Assembly (NCBI GenBank): GCA_018003015.1
Contig: JAGNEZ010000052.1
Location: forward strand, 1 to 45,726
Source: Phycisphaerae bacterium
Lineage (GTDB): Bacteria > Planctomycetota > Phycisphaerae > UBA1845 > PWPN01
Direction: 5' to 3'
Length of the DNA: 45,726 bases
The notes under the pieces were generated by a model. That model was not told the DNA's origin. It searched no databases and saw nothing but the letters and a program-made list of their open reading frames with translations. Both the position numbers and the translations under genes were made by a program. Positions 25,432 to 31,628 of this stretch are shown one piece after another. How positions within the stretch are numbered: the stretch's first letter is position 1; every line of letters begins with the position of its first letter.

Positions 25432-27609
25432 ATGTTGCGGATCCACGCTCGGGGCCCAGGGAGCAGTGCGGTTATCGGCCTGGTCATGATCCTCGGATCA
25501 CCAGCCGCTCATGCCGGTCTGTACCACACCAATCTGCTCAGCAATCCCAGCTTTGAGGATTACTCCACGGCCGCGGCGGCGGTCTACCAGAGTGGCTCCA
25601 CCGTGCAATACGATCTCCAGACCGATAACACGACCGGCCGAGGCGTTCAGGGGTGGCTCAATTCTGGCTACGATGTCTGCGGGATCCGCACGGACGGGAG
25701 CGGCACCGGTCACAGCGGGGATTACTACGGCATGGGGGGTGGCTTCACCTCGGGCCTTGGCCAGGTCGCGGCGATGAAGCAGGATATCGACCTGCTGACC
25801 TGGGGCTTCACCGAAGCCGAACTCGACAGCCATCTGCTGGTGATGGAGGCCGGGGCGTACCTGAGCAGCTACCCCGGCGATTCCGACGCTGTCCGCTTCA
25901 CCATCTACTTTCTGGACCATGGCCAGGCGGTGAAGGCCGCGGCCTACACCTCGGGCCTCCAGGCCCCTGACACCTGGACACTCTTTGAATCGGCAACCAT
26001 CGCCCTGCCCTCAGGAACGCGGTTCATCCGCTTCGAGGCCGAGTTCACCAAGGCCGCCGGCAACAACAACGATGGTCGAATCGACGATGCCTGGGTGTTC
26101 CTCCGGCCGACCGTCTGGCCGTCGCCGCCCATGCTCGATCGCAACCTCTTGGCTAATCCGAGTTTCGAGCTTGGAACGCAGGGGTGGACGGTCACCGCGG
26201 GAAACCCCCGGGCTCGACCGGCCGGGCTCGACGGCGTCCCGGCCAAATCGGGTAGCCGGATGCTGGCCGGCGGACAGCGGAGTATGGACACCGATCCCAA
26301 TCGGGCGGTGGCCTGTCAGGAGATCGTTCTCCCCCACTGCGGGCTCAATCGCACAGTTCTCAACGACTCCGCGAACCGGTTCTTCCTTCGCACCGAGGCG
26401 TGGTTGTACAGCTTCCAGGATGTCGGGCAGGCCAAGGTCACCGTAGATGTCTATGATACCGCCGGTGGCCTGCTGAGCCACTACGACTCCGGCCGCGTCC
26501 GGGCCAACAAGCGTCCCTCGCCCTTCTTCCATCAGGAACCGCTGGCCCGGGGCGCCTATCGCGTGGTCTTCACCTACGATGCCGTCGATCCGTCTGGCAC
26601 CAATCTGGACGGCTACCTGGACGATGCCGCCGTGATCGTCAGCCGAACACCGCATCGGCCGCGATGGCACGGGCCGGTCACCATCGGGCACCGCGGGAAC
26701 TCGATCATCGCACCGGAGAACACGCTATCGGCCGAGAATGCGTGTCGGGCAGGCCGTGCACACCTCGGCGAGTTCGACGTGATGCCCTGCTCGACCGGTG
26801 AGCTGGTCATCATGCATGACAGCACTGTAGACCGGACGACGGATGGCACGGGTTCAGTCTCCAGCCTGAGCCTTGCCCAACTCAAGGCGTTGGATGCGGG
26901 CTCGTGGTTCTCCTCGGATTTCATCGGCGAGCGAGTCCCCACCTTCGAAGAGATCCTGCTGACCATGCTCCCCGATGTGACCCCGTTGATCGAAGCCAAA
27001 TCCGGCAAGGCAGCAGCCTACGTGGCCCAGTTGCGTGCCCTCGGGATCCAGCAGGATGTGCTCGTCCAGAGCTTCAGCTGGAGCCTGTTATCGCAGATTC
27101 ACGCCCTCAATCCCGCCATCCGTCTGGGGGCCCTGGGGAGCGGCACGCTCACCGCCAGCTCAATCGCTCAGATGCAGGCCGCCGGTGCGTCGATCGTCGC
27201 CTGGGAGCAAGGTGGCGTGAGCGATGCAACCGTGACCATGATCCACCAGGCCGGCATGCAGGTTTTCGTCTGGACGGTCAACGACACGGCGGCCGTCCAG
27301 CGCTTCATCGACCTGGGGGTGGATGGCATCATCACGGATCACCCGGGCGGGGTGACCTGGCTGGTTGACCCGGCGATCCATCCGTGCGATTTCGACCTGG
27401 ATTCCGACGTCGACCCAGACGACTGGGCCTTGTTCGGAGACTGCATGACTGCCCCGGGCGAGACTCCGGCGGTGGGTTTCTGCACTACGGCCGACCTCGA
27501 TCGCGATGGCGACGTGGATCAATCGGATTTCGGCGTATTACAGCGTTGCTTTGTAGGCTCGGGGGCCACGGCCGATTTCGCCTGCCTTGAGCCCCATTCT
27601 CCTCCTTGA
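25432..27609 (+). CDS. Secreted glycerophosphodiester phosphodiesterase with binding modules and dockerin-like tail
   Basis: A 725-residue secreted protein with a signal peptide ending AAHA-GL. Two modules each begin with a carbohydrate-binding-like start, NLLSNPSFED (about residue 34) and NLLANPSFELGTQGW (about 240). The GDPD domain (about 415-640) starts with IGHRGNS (His420, Arg421), then APENTLSAENA, EFDVMPCSTGELVIMHDSTVDR, PTFEEIL and VWTVND, so the catalytic His-Arg-Glu-Asp-His set is present. It hydrolyses glycerophosphodiesters to glycerol-3-phosphate plus an alcohol. Two intact calcium loops (DLDSDVDPDDW and DLDRDGDVDQSDF) close the protein as a dockerin-like domain. ATG 25432 has a strong ribosome-binding site. 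Probably scavenges phospholipid head groups or teichoic-type polymers outside the cell. Confidence 0.93.
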   Translation: MLRIHARGPGSSAVIGLVMILGSPAAHAGLYHTNLLSNPSFEDYSTAAAAVYQSGSTVQYDLQTDNTTGRGVQGWLNSGYDVCGIRTDGSGTGHSGDYYGMGGGFTSGLGQVAAMKQDIDLLTWGFTEAELDSHLLVMEAGAYLSSYPGDSDAVRFTIYFLDHGQAVKAAAYTSGLQAPDTWTLFESATIALPSGTRFIRFEAEFTKAAGNNNDGRIDDAWVFLRPTVWPSPPMLDRNLLANPSFELGTQGWTVTAGNPRARPAGLDGVPAKSGSRMLAGGQRSMDTDPNRAVACQEIVLPHCGLNRTVLNDSANRFFLRTEAWLYSFQDVGQAKVTVDVYDTAGGLLSHYDSGRVRANKRPSPFFHQEPLARGAYRVVFTYDAVDPSGTNLDGYLDDAAVIVSRTPHRPRWHGPVTIGHRGNSIIAPENTLSAENACRAGRAHLGEFDVMPCSTGELVIMHDSTVDRTTDGTGSVSSLSLAQLKALDAGSWFSSDFIGERVPTFEEILLTMLPDVTPLIEAKSGKAAAYVAQLRALGIQQDVLVQSFSWSLLSQIHALNPAIRLGALGSGTLTASSIAQMQAAGASIVAWEQGGVSDATVTMIHQAGMQVFVWTVNDTAAVQRFIDLGVDGIITDHPGGVTWLVDPAIHPCDFDLDSDVDPDDWALFGDCMTAPGETPAVGFCTTADLDRDGDVDQSDFGVLQRCFVGSGATADFACLEPHSPP

Positions 27610-27633
27610 CAAGATGGATTCTGACGATATACT
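27606..27633 (+). promoter_or_regulatory. Near-consensus sigma-70 promoter overlapping the stop of the GDPD gene
   Basis: TTGACA (27606-27611), 16-base spacer, TATACT (27628-27633). The -35 hexamer contains the TGA stop of the preceding gene. No coding region with a ribosome-binding site follows before the terminator at 27712-27743. Confidence 0.65.
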
Positions 27634-27639
27634 AGGACT

Positions 27640-27743
27640 TATAAGTTGCGCCAAGTGCGGGCCCCAGGCCTGCACGGGATCGTATGGCGGGCCAGAGATA
27701 AAAGAGAAAGGCCCCCGCGTAGCGTAGTTCGCGGGGGTTTTTT
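27640..27743 (+). ncRNA. Candidate small RNA or attenuated leader, about 104 nucleotides
   Basis: Defined by the promoter at 27606-27633 and the terminator at 27712-27743. A first hairpin pairs GTGCGGGCC (27655-27663) with GGCCTGCAC (27667-27675), with one G-U pair. A second possible pairing joins GGGCC (27689-27693) with GGCCC (27710-27714) and would block the terminator's left arm. The linker is A-rich (agataaaagagaaa). It does not match a known riboswitch or housekeeping RNA that I recognise. Alternatives: a leader regulating the pseudopilin gene at 28097, or a fortuitous promoter. The 5' end is approximate. Confidence 0.45.
27712..27743 (+). terminator. Strong intrinsic terminator
   Basis: CCCCCGCG (27712-27719) pairs with CGCGGGGG (27730-27737) around a 10-base loop, followed by six T (27738-27743). 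It serves the GDPD gene and the candidate small RNA. Confidence 0.85.
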
Positions 27744-28096
27744 GCGCGCGCCCTTTGTGAGACCATGGTTCCTGGTTCGTTCGTGGCGGCACATCGCGAG
27801 CCCAAGGGCGCATTTCAGTCTCTCTGTAGCAGGCCCGGGTACGTGCGTTTAGACTATGATCCAGGTGGATGACGGGAATGCCGGTGATCGAGATCGCCAC
27901 CCCGGCTGAGGGCCGCGGAGGGCGGAGTGAGAGTGGAGAAGTCCCGATTCATCCGAAGTCTGGCTCGAGGGCGCGTCGCCGACAAGACCTGCAAGTATGC
28001 GGCTTCGATCGACAAGTCTGTCGTTTCGGACCGCAAAGCGGGCCTTCGAGAGCGACGAGAGCTTCGAACGAACGCATCATCTGAAGGAGAACGATC
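27744..28096 (+). other. 353-base intergenic region before the pseudopilin gene
   Basis: No convincing gene. Short plus-strand frames and a long minus-strand frame pass through, but none has a start site or domain that supports it. TAGACTATGAT near 27850 could hold a -10 element for the pseudopilin gene but lacks a clear -35. Confidence 0.55.
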
Positions 28097-28957
28097 ATGT
28101 CGTGTCATGGCGAATGCAGGAGAGCGGCTTTCACCCTGATTGAGGTCCTTGTGGTCGTGGCGATCATCGCATTGCTGATCGCGATCCTGATCCCATCGCT
28201 CTCGATCGCCCGCGAGCAGGCCCGGCGCGGAGTGTGCTCTCAGAACATCCGGCAGATGAACATGGCGTGCATCCAGTATGCCGACAGCGACCGCGGCGGC
28301 AACTACATGTTCAACCGGAACCCCGCCAACTACAACAACGGCACCGATAGCCTGCTGCACATCATCCCGCGCTACTTGAGGGATCCCCGGGTGGCGATCT
28401 GCCCCAGCACCGAGAATATCGTTCGCGACAGTCCCGCCGACAAGGTGGTTCCGCCGCCTCGGGGTGGCGAGGAGGCGCTCTCCAACTACCAGGCGGATCT
28501 TGATGACAATGCAGCGGATGCGGCCGATAACCGCGGAGGCCATAGCTATGAGGTCTGGGGCTTCTACGACGGGGTCTGCCGCTACCCGGACAACACCCTG
28601 ATTGACGGAAAGCTGGTCCCCATCAAGGTCAGCGACACCAAGTACGTCACCATCAGCCACGTCATCAAGACCCATCGAACGGTCAAGCGGCCGTTCGACA
28701 CCATTCTGCTCATCGACGCCGACGACACGGATCCCAACAACGCTCCCGACCTGCGGAACAACCACAAGGAGGCCGGCCTTAATATCGGTTTCCTGGACGG
28801 CCACGTGGTCTTCGCCAAGCCCAAGCAGCTGGCCCGCATCTACACGGCCAGTTGGCAGTGGCCACCGACCGGCTGGAACAACCCCAGTGCTGCCGTGTAT
28901 GAACCGCATCTGGAGCAGACCACGGAGGATGGCCACACCCGGTATCGTGCCAAGTAG
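28097..28957 (+). CDS. Type II secretion/type IV pilin-like pseudopilin with an H-x10-DG motif
   Basis: A 286-residue protein with a short leader and the class III signal RRAAFTLIE followed by [19 protein letters not shown]. Prepilin peptidase would cleave before FTLIE; the -1 residue is Ala rather than the usual Gly. The long helix continues through [20 protein letters not shown]. The C-terminal domain ends with [18 protein letters not shown], the His-to-Asp-Gly motif of the large planctomycete pseudopilin-like family (H-x9-DG in most, one residue longer here). AAGGAG sits 8 bases before the ATG. No prepilin peptidase, GspD or GspE is in the window, so partners must be elsewhere. It lies between two dockerin-tailed secreted proteins. 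Exact substrate or structure formed is unknown. Confidence 0.92.
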
Positions 28958-29033: not shown

Positions 29034-31628
29034 ATGATGAACGCGAATTGTGGGGAAAAGAGGTATCGCTCTGCGCGGACCGGGGCCCTCGGTGTCCTGG
29101 CGGTGTTGTTGGCGATGGGCGGCCAGGTGCAGGGACAACTTGTGCAGGTTTCCGTTGACCAGGGGGAATACTATCCATACCAGCTGCTGATCATGCCGAG
29201 TTCCGCGGGCGACACCGCGTTTGATCCGACCGACGGTGGCCGGATGTACATAGCGGTCGACGCTACCATCGCTTTGGGCGGCGGCGTCTATCGCGTAGAC
29301 ACCCTGCCCGGCGGGGCGATGGTCCCGGGCGATCAGGTCGCCCAACTCGACCGGCCGTCCGGTCTGGCCTTCGCCAGCAACGGGGATCTGGTCGCCTGTC
29401 TGGACTACCCCGGTGACGTGTACGCGATCCGCACCCCACGAAATGGATCGCCTTATACGGTTGACCACGCGATCGATCAGTTCGGAGGTGCGGCCGACGA
29501 TGATCCCATCGCTCTGGGAACCGCTCCGGCGGCGTTCAGCGGCGCGGTAGCCAGGCCCGGCGACATCATTATCGCCGACCGCGGCCGGGACGATGATGGT
29601 AGCGTTCCCAATGACTTCTACGTCTACACCGCGAGCGCGACACCCGGCGACCCGGGCACGCCCACCGACCCGCTGGCCTTCATCAACTACATGGCCCCGA
29701 CTCCCACGCTGGGGGCCTACGATAACATCAACATCAACGACTTCGATTTCTCGCTCGACGGGGCGAGCCTGTATACCCTGTTCGCGAACGGCACGATCGT
29801 GCAGCTCGACCCCAGCGGTAACGTCCTTCGAGAGGCGTCGATCGCCGGGGCGTCTCCCAACCCGGCGGCGATTGCCACTCACCCCGTCACCGGCCGCATC
29901 TGGGTGGCCAGCGACGACCTCGATGAGGTCTGGTCGATCGATCCAGCGACCGAGACCGTCCAGCGGGAATTGAAGTTCGCTCGTACCGGCGCGGCCGTGC
30001 CCGCGACCATCGATTTCAATGACCCCTCGCTACGGTTCAACGCCGACGGAAGCCTGTTCACGGTCAGCGATGCCTACACCCCAGGCTACGTCTGGATATT
30101 CAAGAAAGCCACGGGAACCAATCACCCCCCAACGGTGCGCATCGTGACCGACCCGCCCAGCGGGATCATGGGCAGCACCACGGCCGTGCTCGATGGCAGC
30201 ACTTCCACGAACGGCGACGGCGGAATCGCCGGGCTGACCTACCAGTGGGTGCAGGCCTGGGGGCCGGCGACCGCGACCATCGCCACGCCGACCGCGCCCG
30301 TGACCACCGTGACCCTGCCGGTCAAAGGCAGCTACGTCTTCACGCTACAACTGGATGATCATCAGGCCACGGACAACGTGGCCTGCGCCTCGGTCTATCT
30401 GACCATGCCCGCGGTCAGCGTGGTTTTGCCCGTCGGCACGACCATCGCCAAGGCATCCGCGGTCTTCGCCAACGGCGATTATCCGGGTGACGCCGCGTTC
30501 GACCCGATCGATAACGACACCATCTACATCACCAAGGACAACTCCGCCAGCACCACCCCAGGATCGGGCGGGGGCATCTATCGCATCAATCACAAGAGCG
30601 ATGACAGCTATGAGCTCGGCGAGCAGATCGCCAGCGCTGCCAACCCCTCTTCTTTGACCTTCACGCCGGATGGCACCCTCTGGTGGGTGCATGACTTCGC
30701 CGGCACGCTGTTCCGAGTCGTTTCCCCTAGCAGTGGAGCACCCTATATCGTCGAGCCGGTGATCAGCTCGTTCCTCGGCTCCGGCGACGACGATCCGATC
30801 GCCGTGGCCGCGGCGCCGCCGGGCTTCTCCAGCACACTCGTCAGCCCGGGCGATATCATCATCGGCGATCGCGGTGTGGACGACAACCCTCCGCAAGGCG
30901 TGTACGTCTTCCCGCCTGCGCTCTACACCGGAGCACCCCTGACGGGCTACAGCACCTTCCTTGTGCCTACGTCCTCACTCAGCGCATACCCCTCCGACAT
31001 GGACGGCATGTCCTTCGGGCCCGACCCGGCCCGCAGCAACGAGATCGTCATGTACGTGTCTTTCGACAACGGCAAGATCGTCAAGTTCGCGGCCGACGGC
31101 ACCTTCCTGCGTGAACTCGCCGTGACCGGCGTCACGCTAGCCAATCTCGATTCGATGGGCGTCAACCCCAAAGATGGCCGCATCTGGGTCGGCGATGACA
31201 ACCTCGATCAGCTCTGGTCGATCGATCCGGTCACCGGCGAGGCTCAGTTGGAAGTCTCCTTCTACCGCGAGGGCGAGACACGCCCGGATTACCAGATCAA
31301 CTTCCACGATCCGAGCATCAAGTTCTCCAACAACGGCAAGAAGATGGTGGTGTGCGACACCACTCAGAACGTGACCGAAGGCTGGATCTGGATCTTCGAG
31401 TTCAGCGAGCCGTTCCCCTTCGATTGGGACAAGGATTTGGACGTGGACAACACCGATCTGGCCGGGTTTGCCCAATGCTTCAGCGGGCCGGCGATTCCTC
31501 AGACCATCCAGGGTTGCACGCGAGCCGACGTGGACAAGGATGGCGACGTCGATCAGGCGGACTTCGGCGTGTTCCAGGAGTGCTACAGTGGAGCCGGCCA
31601 CAGTTACGATCCCGCGTGCGTGAACTGA
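29034..31628 (+). CDS. Secreted double beta-propeller protein with central Ig-like domain and dockerin-like tail
   Basis: An 864-residue protein with a signal peptide ending QVQG-QL. Two related regions (about 35-360 and 460-790) each carry matching elements: DTAFDPTDGGRMYIA versus DAAFDPIDNDTIYIT, GGGVYRVD versus GGGIYRIN, ARPGDIIIADRG versus SPGDIIIGDRG, and GRIWVASDDLDEVWSIDP versus GRIWVGDDNLDQLWSIDP. These are NHL/SMP-like propeller halves. Between them (about 365-460) is a PKD/Ig-like segment (PPTVRIVTDPPSG, TYQWVQAWGP). The tail has two calcium loops, DWDKDLDVDNTDL and DVDKDGDVDQADF. GAGGAGG precedes the tandem ATGs at 29034 and 29037. No enzyme motif is recognised; a binding or structural role is likely. 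Confidence 0.88.
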   Translation: MMNANCGEKRYRSARTGALGVLAVLLAMGGQVQGQLVQVSVDQGEYYPYQLLIMPSSAGDTAFDPTDGGRMYIAVDATIALGGGVYRVDTLPGGAMVPGDQVAQLDRPSGLAFASNGDLVACLDYPGDVYAIRTPRNGSPYTVDHAIDQFGGAADDDPIALGTAPAAFSGAVARPGDIIIADRGRDDDGSVPNDFYVYTASATPGDPGTPTDPLAFINYMAPTPTLGAYDNININDFDFSLDGASLYTLFANGTIVQLDPSGNVLREASIAGASPNPAAIATHPVTGRIWVASDDLDEVWSIDPATETVQRELKFARTGAAVPATIDFNDPSLRFNADGSLFTVSDAYTPGYVWIFKKATGTNHPPTVRIVTDPPSGIMGSTTAVLDGSTSTNGDGGIAGLTYQWVQAWGPATATIATPTAPVTTVTLPVKGSYVFTLQLDDHQATDNVACASVYLTMPAVSVVLPVGTTIAKASAVFANGDYPGDAAFDPIDNDTIYITKDNSASTTPGSGGGIYRINHKSDDSYELGEQIASAANPSSLTFTPDGTLWWVHDFAGTLFRVVSPSSGAPYIVEPVISSFLGSGDDDPIAVAAAPPGFSSTLVSPGDIIIGDRGVDDNPPQGVYVFPPALYTGAPLTGYSTFLVPTSSLSAYPSDMDGMSFGPDPARSNEIVMYVSFDNGKIVKFAADGTFLRELAVTGVTLANLDSMGVNPKDGRIWVGDDNLDQLWSIDPVTGEAQLEVSFYREGETRPDYQINFHDPSIKFSNNGKKMVVCDTTQNVTEGWIWIFEFSEPFPFDWDKDLDVDNTDLAGFAQCFSGPAIPQTIQGCTRADVDKDGDVDQADFGVFQECYSGAGHSYDPACVN

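Follow-up and report, generated by a model that had tools for sequence, protein, structure and literature searches.

GlpP is a textbook antiterminator that responds to glycerol-3-phosphate (G3P). A comparable principle operates in the ribonucleic antiterminator (RAT) leaders of LicT, SacY and GlcT, where a short hairpin, once stabilised by a protein, overlaps the terminator and keeps it from forming, much as we propose here; the loop and stem sequence of the RAT presumably differ from those of the element described below. RAT leaders answer to a CAT-PRD protein whereas the regulator linked to our element is GlpP (PF04309), and on that ground we do not count it as a RAT (LicT/SacY) leader. In the target leaders of HutP and TRAP, a protein reads NAG/GAG triplets to decide termination; the loop of our element also carries GAG repeats but these are two triplets within one hairpin loop rather than a long multi-triplet array, and the protein family is different. 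The closest described leaders are those of glpD, glpFK and glpTQ in B. subtilis, in which GlpP together with G3P disrupts the terminator (PMC9604022) and in which GlpP binds the antiterminator (PMC7430163, which also treats the LicT mechanism).

Here we describe an element from a Phycisphaerae bacterium that has in common with these leaders a promoter, an intrinsic terminator that acts conditionally within an untranslated leader, a glpP gene in the same genome and targets that include glycerol-phosphate genes. The likeness to the B. subtilis leaders is one of description, and the hairpin architecture is shared with Bacillota relatives, where it precedes glpD, glpK, glpF and GDPD genes. Unlike in B. 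subtilis, the host belongs to the Planctomycetota, the operons include glycerol-1-phosphate dehydrogenase and HAD phosphatase genes, and the copy studied here precedes a pseudopilin gene.

Results

Anatomy and conservation of the locus

The window is the whole stretch of DNA analysed, 45,726 nt of Phycisphaerae bacterium contig JAGNEZ010000052.1 (GCA_018003015.1), and its coordinates are used throughout; G000 denotes this genome and G001 a sister genome of the same genus. The features of the locus are as follows.

25432 to 27609, + strand: 725-aa protein with a glycerophosphodiester phosphodiesterase (GDPD) domain (Pfam), ending inside the promoter
27606 to 27633, + strand: promoter TTGACA (27606-27611), 16 nt, TATACT (27628-27633), overlapping the GDPD TGA stop (27607-27609); 11/12 in a consensus scan, identical in G001
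27640 to 27743, + strand: leader RNA of about 104 nt if terminated, predicted from promoter and terminator; folds better than 200 of 200 shuffles (z = -3.49)
27655 to 27675, + strand: 9-bp hairpin including one G-U pair, genus-specific; present here and in G001 (one mismatch)
27689 to 27693, + strand: GGGCC, 5' arm of the antiterminator hairpin; conserved, covaries in other genomes
27694 to 27709, + strand: AGAGATAAAAGAGAAA, loop of purines that holds two AGAGA-type repeats and is presumed to be contacted by GlpP; near-invariant in 18 copies
27710 to 27714, + strand: GGCCC, shared arm, forming the antiterminator 3' arm and, with 27712-27714, also the base of the terminator stem
27712 to 27743, + strand: intrinsic terminator with arms CCCCCGCG (27712-27719) and CGCGGGGG (27730-27737), a 10-nt loop and six T (27738-27743); stem sequence varies between genomes, pairing is kept
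27744 to 27752, + strand: GCGCGCGCC, directly 3' of the T run; kept in the family of the genus, 0 differences to G001
28097 to 28957, + strand: pseudopilin-like gene, 286 aa, with an N-terminal methylation motif (N_methyl) and DUF1559 (Pfam); proposed controlled gene
29034 to 31628, + strand: next gene, 864-aa protein with a PKD domain and a weak dockerin-like C-terminus

Transcription would be expected to start at about 27640. The order GDPD, element, pseudopilin and 864-aa PKD protein is the same in G001, the T run lies 354 nt from the pseudopilin start, and the 864-aa gene is possibly in one operon with the pseudopilin. Similar dockerin-like Asp-rich repeats end the GDPD protein (27400-27609) and the 864-aa protein (31400-31628). 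The sequence GCGCGCGCC or a similar one also stands directly 3' of the T run in L028-L034, L168, L169 and L172, including some distant copies; we found no role for it.

An earlier note, made from the window sequence, had recognised a promoter overlapping the GDPD stop, an 8-base terminator stem with six T, a 9-bp hairpin between them, and a GGGCC/GGCCC pairing that would exclude the terminator. All four are present where the note had placed them. The 9-bp hairpin is kept only in G001 and is absent from the copies adjacent to glpP, so that it drops out of the architecture and is probably incidental.

Taken alone, the promoter is within chance expectation (one site versus 0.8 ± 0.8 in shuffles of 3 kb by consensus scan), and the terminator pattern scan does not cover 10-nt loops such as that of the terminator at 27712-27743. 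It is conservation, in a paralogue and in copies in relatives, rather than the promoter that places the site beyond chance. Between G000 and G001, 1 of 65 bases differs in the core (27679-27743) and 0 of 34 in the promoter region (27606-27639), as compared with 19 of 100 in the comparison stretch 27753-27852. The two genomes of the genus thus show clear constraint on promoter and core, and neither promoter, terminator nor alternative pairing has been lost in this close relative.

The element accompanies glpP in Phycisphaerae

The element has the form GGGCC-AGAGA-N-AGAGAA-GGCCC, overlaps a terminator and in most cases follows a TTGAC promoter, and we found 18 copies in 14 genomes of the class Phycisphaerae using blastn (own genome and 100 relatives), a covariance model (397 class genomes) and, for further copies, reading by eye. 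The blastn search gave a paralogue in the own genome (G000:C10:80329-80400) and copies in G001 (two), G003, G005, G007 and G010, the latter five genomes belonging to the same GTDB family. Aligned, these copies show a TTGAC box, a variable leader and GGGCCAGAGA-N-AGAGAAAGGCCC running into the terminator, followed by GCGCGCGCC; TTGAC stands in the corresponding position in 13 of 17 copies. The covariance model matched only the C10 paralogue and the window copy in the own genome. Two other copies likewise occupy a second site in their genomes, one in G233 (C499; L164 1-772, - strand) preceding a separate GDPD gene and one in G189 (C8) preceding a pseudopilin gene. Weak matches in genomes without glpP (E 1e-4 to 1e-2) appear, among those inspected, to be plain G+C-rich terminators lacking GGGCC-AGAGA, as does a second weak match in G189 (C63).

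The C10 paralogue sits between a divergent glpP and an operon encoding GDPD, an Fe-ADH_2 protein of the glycerol-1-phosphate dehydrogenase type and a GlpT-like MFS transporter. GlpP encoded on C10 matches PF04309 with E values of 3e-39 to 9e-39, and its closest solved structures are 3kts and 1vkf. PF04309 is present in 7 of 101 relatives, namely the six blastn-positive genomes and G028, whose element adjoins glpP, and in 17 of 397 class genomes. In 14 of these 17, the element lies in the intergenic region beside glpP, 13 being located by the covariance-model search of relatives that the earlier note had suggested and one (G223) by eye; the genes behind the glpP-adjacent copies in the 14 genomes encode GDPD, glycerol-1-phosphate dehydrogenase, GlpT, HAD phosphatase and G3P dehydrogenase. 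All 10 genomes with model matches at E <= 1e-4 have glpP (hypergeometric P = 8e-16). GlpP of the remaining three PF04309 genomes is closer to the Bacillota type, and two of them (L082, L083) carry, ahead of a GlpT-like gene, a shorter, Bacillota-like GAG..GAG hairpin that overlaps a terminator. Because PF04309 was found only in the own genome among 392 genomes drawn from the phylum, the system is patchy.

A related hairpin in Bacillota

In a set of 80 glpP neighbourhoods, mostly from Bacillota, hairpins with a GAG-N4-8-GAG loop and a 3' arm that begins a terminator occur in 35 cases in 26 loci, versus 6-10 in shuffles. When triplets were compared in this terminator-overlapping setting, GAG had by far the highest share (4.6%) and most others were below 0.6%, AGA and GGA sharing letters with GAGA; GAG-N-GAG loops were approximately tenfold more frequent than loops with unrelated triplets. 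Among the genes behind these hairpins, named from their translations rather than by family search, are those encoding glpD-type G3P dehydrogenase (Sporosarcina, Lederbergia), glycerol kinase (glpK), aquaporin-type GlpF, GDPD and GlpT. In Lederbergia citrea, the GlpP-type hairpin is followed immediately by an Rfam Bacillaceae-1 RNA (L156 2748-2814, - strand), after which comes a glpD-type gene.

Apart from this adjacent RNA in L156, the Bacillota copies match no Rfam family. For the window element, no family scored above its gathering score in Rfam searches at gathering and permissive thresholds; the best sub-threshold hits were sodF sRNA and the Leu and His leaders (23.9/46 bits at best), matching mostly the G+C-rich terminator stem. 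The earlier note had recognised no known family, which holds for Rfam; functionally, the element belongs with the GlpP-controlled leaders of B. subtilis.

Two mutually exclusive hairpins

Read directly in 17 copies, the arms of the antiterminator stem are GGGCC/GGCCC in most, GGGCT/AGCCC in G189, G208, G223 and one G233 copy, GAGCC/GGCTC in G297 and G378, and CGGCC/GGCCC in G007, where four pairs can form; in the eighteenth copy (G189:C8), about four pairs remain. The stem therefore carries compensatory changes at two positions and is complementary in nearly all copies, the exceptions being the mismatched end pair in G007 and the separately read G189:C8 copy. The GGGCC/GGCCC pairing was not part of the covariance model with which copies were located, and the regular expression used to read the arms also permitted non-complementary combinations. 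Where the shared arm changes, so does the 3' arm of the terminator. Alignment in relatives, another step put forward with the initial reading, hence finds covariation both in the antiterminator stem and in the far arm of the terminator. Formal pair counting on alignment A6 gave no compensatory pairs because this alignment was fitted to the terminator and the shared arm is shifted by one base in copies with a shorter loop, which is why the arms were read directly. A conserved outer helix joining the leader with sequence past the terminator, as suggested by GCGCGCGCC and by G380, gave no signal compared with shuffles. On the strength of these sequence comparisons, we consider that the mutually exclusive pairing of antiterminator and terminator is real.

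Folding of the copies gave about -5 to -8 kcal/mol for the antiterminator alone and about -11 to -37 kcal/mol for the terminator, with the exception of G028, in which the two are nearly equal in stability. The terminator, being far more stable, should win unless the competing hairpin is held.

The pseudopilin as a probable target

The gene next to the window copy encodes a pseudopilin rather than a protein of glycerol or G3P metabolism, and no glycerol-phosphate transporter or dehydrogenase adjoins it. Such a gene is atypical of known targets but does not define the mechanism; it lowers the claim about the target and leaves that about the mechanism as it is. Support for the pseudopilin comes from the distant genome G189, in which the gene behind the C8 copy encodes one of about nine members of the window pseudopilin's subfamily among hundreds of pseudopilin matches in 14 genomes; both the element and the subfamily assignment were confirmed by searches with the model and with the protein. 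Because the subfamily matches, it is unlikely that the two loci arose by chance insertion in this lineage, whose genomes each hold more than 60 pseudopilin genes. The subfamily members at G000:C78 and G000:C22 and in G010 and G208 lack the element. The own genome has a large set of pseudopilin-like proteins, with at least 67 matches, and the G189 pseudopilin is followed by a gene for a 483-aa, apparently secreted protein without a Pfam match (L171 727-2178, - strand). In the literature searched, we found no report of a pseudopilin as a GlpP target.

The reading that fares best among the alternatives is a GlpP-responsive leader that was duplicated from the glp operon and that GlpP recognises, yet without a real target at this site, such that it would be a decoy or relic and the pseudopilin would be expressed from another promoter. 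This would fit with the restriction of the copy at the window site to this genus, with the 354 nt to the next gene and with a strongly conserved block in between (approximately 27855-27916) that could hold another promoter. The clear constraint on promoter and core between G000 and G001 argues against it, and so does G189, where an element of its own precedes a gene from the same pseudopilin subfamily, as does a pattern scan that found no other promoter-like or terminator-like site between element and gene, although an undetected promoter may lie between 27744 and 28097. We therefore regard a decoy or relic as unlikely and, given the recurrence in G189 and the constraint between the two genomes, hold the pseudopilin to be the probable working target of the window element, with less certainty than we attach to the assignment to GlpP.

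The block at approximately 27855-27916 is nearly unchanged between G000 and G001 and may serve as another promoter or for some other regulation. A 71-aa frame at 27869 is unlikely to be coding since changes between G000 and G001, judged by eye, mostly alter amino acids.

Discussion

Altogether, we consider it very likely that the window element is a GlpP-dependent conditional terminator, i.e., an antitermination leader. In our model, RNA polymerase would start near 27640 and by default would stop at 27743 because the competing hairpin is far less stable than the terminator at 27712-27743. With abundant G3P, GlpP-G3P would grip the AGAGA..AGAGAA loop as it emerges and hold GGGCC (27689-27693) paired with GGCCC (27710-27714); the held hairpin would take the base of the terminator stem, thereby allowing transcription to proceed into the pseudopilin gene (28097) and probably also the 864-aa gene. 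Transcripts arriving from the upstream GDPD gene would meet the same conditional terminator, which would decide their read-through. We infer GlpP binding, the response to G3P and read-through over approximately 350 nt to the pseudopilin; such an arrangement would tie the expression of a gene for the cell surface or for secretion to the supply of glycerol phosphate.

The earlier note had left open whether the locus encodes a small RNA or an attenuator. The attenuator before the pseudopilin is supported by the conserved exclusive pairing and by the G189 copy. If the 104 nt formed a free-standing small RNA that acts in trans and has a promoter and a terminator to itself, this would account for these two signals, for the stable fold and for the lack of a plausible open reading frame, but what is conserved is the stretch that overlaps the terminator and not a seed elsewhere, the alternative pairing covaries, and nearly all copies stand directly before genes, mostly those of glycerol-phosphate operons beside glpP, making this reading very improbable. 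That the element is an ordinary GDPD terminator next to a chance promoter-like sequence, as its position directly behind the GDPD stop codon and the expected chance frequency of the consensus promoter alone might suggest, is scarcely credible given that the upstream half (GGGCC and the AGAGA loop), useless to such a terminator, is among the most conserved parts and that TTGAC is kept before most copies.

As a GlpP-dependent leader, the element represents antitermination that is known in kind while the pseudopilin target, the occurrence in Planctomycetota and the motif shared across phyla appear to be new. It brings GlpP-dependent antitermination into the Planctomycetota, with an unexpected predicted target, the DUF1559-type pseudopilin that is abundant in planctomycetes, and the conserved hairpin provides a testable recognition motif across two phyla. 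We lean, by a little, towards a broader interpretation in which control by GlpP and G3P extends beyond glycerol metabolism in Planctomycetota, a pseudopilin and a secreted protein having come under the switch through two or more recruitments or through a single ancient one, and in which hairpins whose loop holds two GAG triplets make up an RNA family, so far undescribed, that is the signature of GlpP targets in Bacillota and Planctomycetota alike. The functions of DUF1559 pseudopilins are little understood, and a metabolite switch before one of them would offer a rare handle on their role.
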